Positions 22,690 to 24,769 of a stretch of DNA of 33,617 nucleotides are shown here, one piece after another (positions within the stretch are counted from its first letter, which is position 1; each line of letters opens with the position of its first letter). Source of the DNA: Candidatus Gastranaerophilales bacterium (GTDB lineage: Bacteria > Cyanobacteriota > Vampirovibrionia > Gastranaerophilales > Gastranaerophilaceae); NCBI GenBank assembly GCA_944323675.1, contig CALUTK010000018.1, positions 1 through 33,617 of the forward strand, written 5' to 3'. The notes below the pieces were generated by a model. That model made no database searches, had not been told where the DNA came from, and was given only the letters and a program-made list of their open reading frames with translations. A program made the position numbers and the translations under genes.

Positions 22690-22930
22690 GGCTAGAAATG
22701 TCACCCCTGAAATAAATTCAGGGCAGGCTCTGAACTGGCTGCAAAATCAGTTGAGCCGAATGGCGAAACGTGATTTTATGCCCCTACCTGGCGTTTCAGG
22801 GTCTCGTTGTTTTTAGATGCTGCACTTCGTAAGGACAGGCTCACTCAAAATTTTTAAGATCCTGAAACAAGTTCAGCATGACAAAAATTTTGGTTCGCTT
22901 TGTCAAACAAATTCAGCATGACTGTATTAC
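22690..22930. repeat. Dispersed-repeat region
   Basis: Intergenic DNA with no supported gene. AATTCAGCATGAC at 22909-22921 nearly repeats AGTTCAGCATGAC at 22870-22882, and related TGAAATAAATTCAGGGCAGG and CGTTTCAGGGTCTCG segments lie upstream, like the 'CCTGAAACAAGTTCAG' elements often scattered between genes in bacteria. The stretch 22931-23000 is AT-rich and featureless until the promoter at 23004. Confidence 0.5.
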
Positions 22931-23003: not shown

Positions 23004-23033
23004 TTGACAAATTTTTTCATTTAGGTTTATACT
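23004..23033 (+). promoter_or_regulatory. Strong sigma-70 promoter for a structured RNA
   Basis: TTGACA (23004-23009), 18-base spacer, TATACT (23028-23033); the start site should be near 23040. It drives the RNA below and possibly the gene at 23222. Confidence 0.82.
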
Positions 23034-23039
23034 ACAAAT

Positions 23040-23195
23040 ATAGAATTATGATAAATTTAGTTACTGTAAAATCTAACACATCCTCCTCCTGCAAGTACTC
23101 CGGGACTTGTATAGATTTTGGCGTTTAGATTTTTTAAACAGTAAAATTTATAAAAATATTTAAGTCCCGCTTAAGTTTTTAAAGCGGGATTTTTT
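23040..23195 (+). ncRNA. Candidate small RNA or leader with anti-Shine-Dalgarno stretch
   Basis: A transcript of about 155 nt bounded by a consensus promoter and an intrinsic terminator, with no ORF of note. A long interrupted helix pairs ATAAATT, TTACTGT and AAATCTAA (23051-23076) with TTAGATTT, ACAGTAA and AATTTAT (23125-23151). Its apical part has CATCCTCCTCCTG (23079-23091) next to a hairpin CAAGT/ACTTG. TAGATTTT at 23112-23119 competes for the same AAAATCTA strand, so two folds are possible. Either an sRNA that pairs with ribosome-binding sites or a regulatory leader of the gene at 23222. Confidence 0.6.
23161..23195 (+). terminator. Intrinsic terminator before the gene at 23222
   Basis: TCCCGCTT pairs with AAGCGGGA around a nine-base loop, followed by TTTTTT. 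It lies 26 bases before the next ATG, so it either ends the small RNA or attenuates that gene. Confidence 0.93.
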
Positions 23196-23221: not shown

Positions 23222-24769
23222 ATGAATTTAACGGTAAACAGTTACGACACAAAAAACAGACAGCAAAATTTTAAAGGACTATTGGACGGGGCGGTTACGG
23301 GAACATTGCGGATGCTCGACACAAACGAAATGGCAAATGCCGTTTTGATAGATGTCGGTGCAATGGTGCTTCCGCGTACATATTATGACGCAAAAGCAAG
23401 AAACAAAGACGCCGGTGCTGAAACATTCTTCCGCGAACTCAGCGGAACCTTTATCAACTGTTTATCGGCAGGACTATTTGGCATCGCAATTGCCAAAATT
23501 GCAAACAAATACGTCATGCCTGAGACAAAAATTAACCCGAACACCTGGTTTTCTAAAGACAGTATAAACGTTCTAAAAGCCGCCTGGGATAATGCAGACG
23601 GAGATATTGAAAAATATGTCGGAAATGTCTTTGAAAATCTCGGCGGACGTGATTATAAAAATATTAAAAACTTTAAAGACATAAATTGGGAAAAAATACA
23701 GTGGAACAACCAGAAAAAATGGAAAACAATCTTCTGGGATAATGCCGGCTTTGTGGATGTGGATGAACGGATGAAAACAAAAGACGGCATTGTTAGCACA
23801 ATGACCCAGCTGATTAAAGATAAGACCATTACGAAAAAAGATAAAGAAAACACTCTAAAAATAATGCATGCGAGAATTACAAATGCTCTTGGCGCTGAAC
23901 GAGATATGCAGGTTAAAATAGGAAAACATACCCTTGGCGCAACGCTGGAAAATATTCTCCGCGACACGTATGATATGGGTAGAAAAGTTCTGAATGACAA
24001 TAACGTAAAGATTGAGACAGCCTTAAAAAAGATTTCTAAGGTAAATAACATCAAAATTTTCGGTGCTCTTGCATGTTCTGCTGCACTCGGGCTTACTAAC
24101 CAGTATCTGAACAGGAAAATCACGGAAAAGCGTACCGGCAAAAAAGGCTTTGTCGGCGATGTTGATTATGCCCAGAAAAAAGCAGGCGAAAACATTAAAA
24201 CGGCGCCGGAAAAAGAAAAAAATCTCTGGATTAAAAAGCTTGCAGCAAGTGCAGGTATGCTCGCCATGGTAATCGCCGTTATGAGAGTAAAAAATCCAAA
24301 AGATTTTGTAAAAAAACTGGAATTCACAGGTCCTGTCACCAGCGGCAACGCAATAAAAACGGTTTATGCATCAACAATTGTCGGAAGATTTCTTGCTGCC
24401 GACAACGGAACAGAACTAAGAGAATCTGTCACTCGCGACTATTTCGGATTCCTCAACTGGCTTGTATTCGGCGGCTTTGCAGCAAAAGGCGCTGCAAATC
24501 TTATGGATAAAGGCTGTAAAAATCTATTTAACATTAAAAAAGAAGGAAAAGGATTAAAACACTGGCTGAACGACCTGAGCCTGAAAACCCACGCAGAAAT
24601 TGCTGCCAAAGGTAAAGAGTTCGCTCACCAAAATCTCAAAAAACTCAATATCGCACACGCGGCAGGGCTTGCATATTCGGCCATAACCCTCGGAGTGCTT
24701 CTGCCTATGATTAACGACAAAATGACACGCTATAAAGCAAAAAAACAACAGCAAAATCCTACTGCCTAA
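23222..24769 (+). CDS. Large multi-pass membrane protein, lineage-type, unknown
   Basis: A 515-residue protein I cannot assign. It opens MNLTVNSYDTKNRQQNFKGL, with an Asn-Phe-Lys-Gly motif like that of the protein at 14461. About five hydrophobic segments are visible: near 78-94, 277-293, 339-356, 418-438 and 480-500, separated by long soluble parts, among them a Trp-rich stretch (DINWEKIQWNNQKKWKTIFW, about 158-178) and lysine-rich loops. No enzyme motif is seen. AAGGGAAACAG lies before the ATG. It is downstream of a terminator-ended RNA that may control it. The last residues are basic and Gln-rich. Confidence 0.8.
   Translation: MNLTVNSYDTKNRQQNFKGLLDGAVTGTLRMLDTNEMANAVLIDVGAMVLPRTYYDAKARNKDAGAETFFRELSGTFINCLSAGLFGIAIAKIANKYVMPETKINPNTWFSKDSINVLKAAWDNADGDIEKYVGNVFENLGGRDYKNIKNFKDINWEKIQWNNQKKWKTIFWDNAGFVDVDERMKTKDGIVSTMTQLIKDKTITKKDKENTLKIMHARITNALGAERDMQVKIGKHTLGATLENILRDTYDMGRKVLNDNNVKIETALKKISKVNNIKIFGALACSAALGLTNQYLNRKITEKRTGKKGFVGDVDYAQKKAGENIKTAPEKEKNLWIKKLAASAGMLAMVIAVMRVKNPKDFVKKLEFTGPVTSGNAIKTVYASTIVGRFLAADNGTELRESVTRDYFGFLNWLVFGGFAAKGAANLMDKGCKNLFNIKKEGKGLKHWLNDLSLKTHAEIAAKGKEFAHQNLKKLNIAHAAGLAYSAITLGVLLPMINDKMTRYKAKKQQQNPTA

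Follow-up and report, generated by a model that had tools for sequence, protein, structure and literature searches.

Does the short transcription unit that precedes a large membrane-protein gene in the Gastranaerophilales produce a free small RNA, or does it form a leader that controls the gene behind it? The question arises from a 33,617-nt contig of a Candidatus Gastranaerophilales bacterium (CALUTK010000018.1; the whole stretch is referred to below as the window), in which a sequence-only reading had noted a TTGACA-18-TATACT promoter and a strong terminator bounding a structured RNA. Its first suggestion was a small RNA that blocks ribosome-binding sites through a C-rich stretch, with an attenuating leader or a riboswitch-like switch as the alternative. 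The physical description holds up: the promoter is present with 11/12 matches, the RNA at 23040-23195 folds at -37.9 kcal/mol as compared with a mean of -22.8 for dinucleotide-shuffled sequences (z -4.5; 0/200 shuffles equal), and a hairpin with a U-tract ends 26 nt before the ATG of the membrane-protein gene. That terminator is missed by a simple terminator scanner and is supported by RNA folding and comparative data. The window RNA has no Rfam match at the gathering threshold, and the best hits at a relaxed threshold are weak, terminator-like chance matches. In the gap 5' of the promoter, at 22840-22930, lies a repeated motif around TTCAGCATGAC that resembles a dispersed intergenic repeat. 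As argued below, the element is very probably a ribosome-mediated transcription attenuator placed before the 515-aa membrane-protein gene.

Table. Features of the leader and the controlled gene in the window.
Feature	Position	Strand	Description and basis
Promoter	23004..23033	+	TTGACA 23004-23009, 18-nt spacer, TATACT ending 23033; 11/12 matches
Leader ORF	23048..23128	+	26 codons plus stop, product MINLVTVKSNTSSSCKYSGTCIDFGV; absent from the supplied ORF list, read in frame from ATG 23048
Control codons	23081..23089	+	TCC TCC TCC (Ser12-14), DNA TCCTCCTCC, the CCUCCUCCU run of the sequence-only reading; in leader ORF
Segment 1 (protector)	23092..23096	+	CAAGT, partner ACTTG 23105-23109; in MFE fold; starts 2 nt past last control codon
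Segment 2 (antiterminator strand)	23101..23109	+	CGGGACTTG; 8-nt perfect complement of 23162-23169
Segment 3	23162..23169	+	AAGTCCCG; terminator 5' arm and partner of segment 2; complementarity, covariation
Intrinsic terminator	23162..23195	+	Stem 23162-23172 with 23182-23192, U-tract 23190-23195; fold and comparison
Controlled gene	23222..24769	+	515-aa predicted helical membrane protein, Gastranaerophilales family; AlphaFold model pLDDT 82

The C-rich run is present where it had been described (CCTCCTCCT, 23082-23090), but it is coding sequence: it supplies three serine codons, UCC UCC UCC, of a short leader ORF. Ninety orthologous loci from relatives, all of them metagenome-assembled genomes, were compared (80 named records and 10 same-genus loci, a few of which duplicate named-record assemblies). 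A homologous leader ORF of 12-40 codons is found in 89/90, with a serine run in 72 and a cysteine run in 17. ORFs in which at least four of five residues are Ser or Cys occur in 77/90 upstream regions, as compared with 0/90 reverse strands and 7/1800 dinucleotide shuffles. Within the runs, synonymous codons drift (TCC/TCA, TGT/TGC) and the amino acid is kept, and CCTCCTCCT itself is present in only 24/72 serine-type and 0/17 cysteine-type leaders. Because the amino acid is retained while the nucleotides vary, a conserved anti-Shine-Dalgarno pairing is excluded. The lone exception among the 90 loci, L079 (2320-2480 in CALVAL010000066.1), keeps the promoter and has lost both leader ORF and terminator; it is probably a natural escape from attenuation in which the gene is expressed constitutively. 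At L125 (320-560), the leader carries a CCCC run and no strong intrinsic terminator was found before the gene, and attenuation there may be degenerate or follow another mode.

Linkage and copy number bear on the same choice. DNA homologs of the element were found in ten genus assemblies, the window's included, each directly 5' of the same gene. A covariance model, which was built from serine-type leaders and did not recover cysteine-type ones, gave one strong full-length match (E 1e-16 or better) in 11/13 same-genus genomes, each at the membrane-protein gene; it gave no strong match in G004 and G008, both of which are without the ortholog. Eight weak full-length matches inspected as possible further attenuator copies are gene ends and ordinary terminators. 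The covariance search that the sequence-only reading had proposed thus yields constant linkage to the downstream gene, the outcome expected of a leader and not of a small RNA. A free small RNA acting in trans, with its C-rich loop paired to the Shine-Dalgarno sequences of target mRNAs, would fit a terminated product that should be a discrete, structured RNA of ~155 nt with CCUCCUCCU partly unpaired. Against it stand the replacement of the run by TCA or cysteine codons in relatives, the single copy per genome that always lies beside the same gene, and the lack of room behind the terminator for a separate promoter of that gene. We consider this explanation very unlikely, and the terminated RNA may have a secondary role in trans.

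The promoter is conserved together with the leader ORF. TTGAC occurs no more than 75 nt from the leader ATG in 86/89 loci (shuffle expectation 5.5%), and a -10-like hexamer follows it by 15-19 nt in 84/89. The TTGAC-to-ATG distance is frequently 35-36 or 44-51 nt, which predicts leaderless or near-leaderless initiation of the leader ORF; in the window, the promoter position predicts a 5' UTR of ~8 nt. Only 48/89 loci have a Shine-Dalgarno-like triplet in front of the leader ATG.

Two competing pairings for one strand had been pointed out, involving TAGATTTT (23112) or TTAGATTT (23125). Both sequences are present, but the competition that is conserved is that of antiterminator versus terminator: CGGGACTT (23101-23108) and AAGTCCCG are exactly complementary, and the segment 2:3 antiterminator and the terminator are mutually exclusive. 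An intrinsic terminator lies between leader ORF and gene in 87/89 loci, and in 79/87 the segment 2:3 complementarity exceeds that of shuffled segment 2 at p<0.05. Compensatory segment 2/3 variants include CGGAACTT/AAGTTCCG, CGAGACTT/AAGTCTCG, CAGGACT/AGTCCTG, and AGGAACTT/AAGTTCCT. By permutation and shuffle statistics that ignore shared ancestry, 40 distinct segment 2/3 combinations give 241/320 Watson-Crick pairs versus 213.5 expected on re-pairing (permutation p<=5e-5), and a 33-sequence alignment contains two-sided changes in 5/9 antiterminator pairs (reached by 0/500 shuffles) and in 7/8 terminator pairs, the latter with 98.5% of cells paired (matched by 0/500 shuffles). Sliding the partner abolishes both covariation signals. 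The segment 1:2 protector pairing is kept in 93.9% of cells; this hairpin exhibits no covariation and is too invariant to be informative. Among serine-type loci, segment 2 is read in phase 1 in 42, phase 2 in 19, and phase 0 in 4, and its occurrence in all three phases implies that it is conserved as RNA and not as peptide. The long interrupted helix of the sequence-only reading is strong in the window (25 expected pairs versus 11 in shuffles); elsewhere it exceeds shuffles only moderately, with a median across loci of 15.6 expected pairs versus 9.7 and all 20 shuffles beaten in only 13/87 loci; it was rejected as the main conserved structure.

Alternative terminator and antiterminator structures that exist and covary would also be present in a ligand-binding riboswitch to which the ORF was incidental. 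The RNAalifold consensus contains the terminator only, with no conserved aptamer outside the ORF; there is no Rfam match, and the run is conserved in its amino acid while its nucleotides change. A riboswitch therefore appears extremely improbable, and the riboswitch-like option gives way to a switch based on the ribosome and its codons. The other option, an attenuating leader, is borne out by the constant linkage and by the conserved promoter, leader ORF, and covarying antiterminator and terminator.

The arrangement is compatible with control by a stalled ribosome. When a ribosome was modeled as stalled in the run, with the RNA up to the ribosome masked and the terminator 3' arm absent, the median expected number of segment 2:3 pairs climbed from 1.0 to 9.6, and in the window alone the number rose from 0.1 to 8.9. 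The spacing between the end of the run and segment 2 is mostly 7-14 nt, which fits a ribosome footprint; like the masked-folding model, it indicates that a ribosome halted on the control codons can cover the protector. Once the full transcript is allowed to equilibrate, the terminator prevails even if segment 1 is masked. The choice must therefore be kinetic and fall while the RNA is still being transcribed, as it does in known attenuators.

Sequence and comparison show the promoter, the leader ORF, the competing pairings, their conservation, and the constant linkage to the gene; ribosome stalling, the serine signal, and induction are inferred, and the following course of events is proposed. 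RNA polymerase would start at the promoter and a ribosome would enter the leader ORF immediately. With ample charged tRNA-Ser, the ribosome would clear the UCC run, and either the 1:2 pairing or the ribosome itself would cover segment 2; segment 3 would then be free to form the terminator with its 3' arm, segment 4, and transcription would end at 23195. If UCN-reading tRNA-Ser were poorly charged, the ribosome would stall in the run with its leading edge covering segment 1, segment 2 would pair with segment 3 ahead of the synthesis of segment 4, the terminator would fail, and the membrane-protein gene would be transcribed. Serine shortage thus probably switches on this lineage-specific membrane protein.

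Codon usage in the runs is strongly skewed. Serine codons in the runs of the 72 serine-type loci (n=394) comprise 222 UCC, 142 UCA, 14 UCG, 11 UCU, and 5 AGY. UCN codons therefore make up 389/394 (98.7%) and AGY 1.3%, versus 35% AGY in the downstream genes, and UCC accounts for 56% as compared with 5.5% in those genes. The cysteine runs contain 43 UGU and 22 UGC. The genome encodes tRNA-Ser with anticodons GGA, UGA, CGA, and GCU, and tRNA-Cys with GCA. UCU is scarce in the serine-type runs (11/394) yet reaches 25% in genes, and tRNA-Ser(GGA) should read UCC and UCU alike. Part of the UCC excess may stem from the protector helix, in which the final C of the run is often paired.

This bias also bears on an explanation that keeps the same RNA switch and replaces the tRNA signal by nascent-peptide arrest, with a small molecule, a metal, or redox state causing the Ser- or Cys-rich peptide itself to stall the ribosome. 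The conservation of a Ser or Cys run in the short peptide of 89/90 loci would suit such a mechanism, clusters of cysteines could bind metal or sense redox, and the RNA switch would respond to any stall in the run. However, run length and flanking residues vary widely, replacement of Cys by Ser would destroy metal or thiol chemistry, and the preference within the run for UCN, including the rare UCC, points to tRNA and not to the peptide. Peptide arrest is accordingly regarded as unlikely, and codon-dependent attenuation is retained as the preferred reading.

In a tree of the downstream protein (87 rows), one change suffices to divide the serine from the cysteine types (SH-aLRT 96). Midpoint rooting, which is a drawing convention only, places the serine clade inside a cysteine grade. 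Cysteine codons are probably ancestral, with one switch to serine. Ribosomes of Bacillus subtilis starved for serine slow down at all four UCN codons and at those for cysteine but not at AGC/AGU, and serine is the precursor of cysteine (Subramaniam et al., PMC3862929). The leader runs use precisely the UCN or the cysteine codon classes. Since serine is the precursor of cysteine and its starvation slows both classes, both versions of the leader could report falling serine. We favor serine depletion as the single signal, which either codon set would report.

The controlled gene does not belong to the known serine or cysteine genes; its product may act in transport, in envelope remodeling, or in stationary phase. 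Its 515-aa product has no Pfam or NCBIfam match, its PHROG matches are insignificant, and no convincing PDB relative was found by sequence or fold (best Foldseek E 0.12). The best VIA-align match, to membrane pyrophosphatase with a Z of 6.2, falls inside the tool's stated chance range. P0001 and many relatives carry at the N-terminus a conserved Q-x-NFKG / FRG motif after a variable Asn-rich stretch, which is shared by lineage paralogs and may serve in sorting or docking as a signal peculiar to the lineage. The family has several paralogs per genome; no Ser/Cys leader was found at tandem paralogs in seven sampled genomes or at a single distant paralog sampled in an eighth. At G000:C36:18312-21526 (L159) and its equivalents in relatives, a tandem pair of longer paralogs of about 570-590 aa has an unrelated upstream region of its own that is likewise free of a Ser/Cys leader.

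Orthologs of the controlled gene are patchily distributed in the order, in ~87/286 genomes. Full-length serA is missing in several gene-carrying members of the genus and present in two without the gene; the full-length form (TIGR01327) is found in G004, G006, G008, and G010 and is below cut-off in G000, G001, G003, G005, G009, and G011. Serine auxotrophy as the underlying condition was set aside: over 286 genomes gene presence and serA have no significant association (Fisher p=0.08; counts 49/38/134/65). A broader interpretation, which we put forward tentatively and at slightly less than even weight, is a lineage-wide serine-depletion switch in which polyserine (UCN) and polycysteine leaders, interchangeable because falling serine would slow translation of either codon set, would gate a non-biosynthetic membrane protein specific to these gut bacteria.

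Read in this manner, an apparent anti-Shine-Dalgarno small RNA becomes a readable nutrient switch, and a membrane-protein family widespread in the Gastranaerophilales gains a first functional clue, limitation for serine or cysteine. The attenuator would have exchanged the codon it senses once, from cysteine to serine, with the RNA switch retained; comparisons among natural leaders could then put the selective-charging theory of control-codon choice to the test. In the literature searched, an open-access subset, no serine-codon attenuators and no leader peptides in this lineage were found; if true, the element would be the first serine-codon transcription attenuator in that literature and a documented case of one attenuator changing its control amino acid.

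Among described systems, the closest in layout to the four segments of the window are the trp-type attenuators. The trp, his, leu, and thr attenuators share a promoter, a short leader ORF with control codons, a protector, an antiterminator, and an intrinsic terminator, but they belong to biosynthetic operons, whereas the leaders here have serine codons, precede a lineage-specific membrane protein, and have undergone one Cys-to-Ser change. The codon bias within the runs resembles the rare-codon leu leader (PMC1183508). The 17 cysteine-type loci look like the mycobacterial polycysteine leaderless short ORFs, as far as these are portrayed where Canestrari 2020 is cited (PMC13236596, PMC9094748), and like the Actinobacteria cysteine leader peptides, in which clustered cysteine codons lie upstream of the controlled gene (PMC1262725). 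Those leaders act on cysteine genes; no terminator hairpin was found at the Actinobacteria leaders (PMC1262725) and regulation by the polycysteine ORFs is described as translational (PMC13236596), whereas the leader in the window has an intrinsic terminator and an antiterminator. In Rhodobacterales, the uORFC-8-2 motif that lies upstream of cysS (PMC8632094) is likewise predicted to be a ribosome-mediated attenuator and combines tandem cysteine codons with an intrinsic terminator; it differs in having two cysteine codons, in preceding a cysteinyl-tRNA synthetase gene in alphaproteobacteria, and in having no serine version. In B. subtilis sinR (PMC3862929), the UCN (not AGY) and cysteine codons that slow ribosomes on serine starvation are those used in the leaders here; in sinR they are part of the coding sequence itself and reduce the amount of its product, whereas here they lie in a leader that would control transcription termination. 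The principle of attenuation is ordinary, and it is the control amino acid, the codon switch, and the target that are new as far as the literature searched shows.
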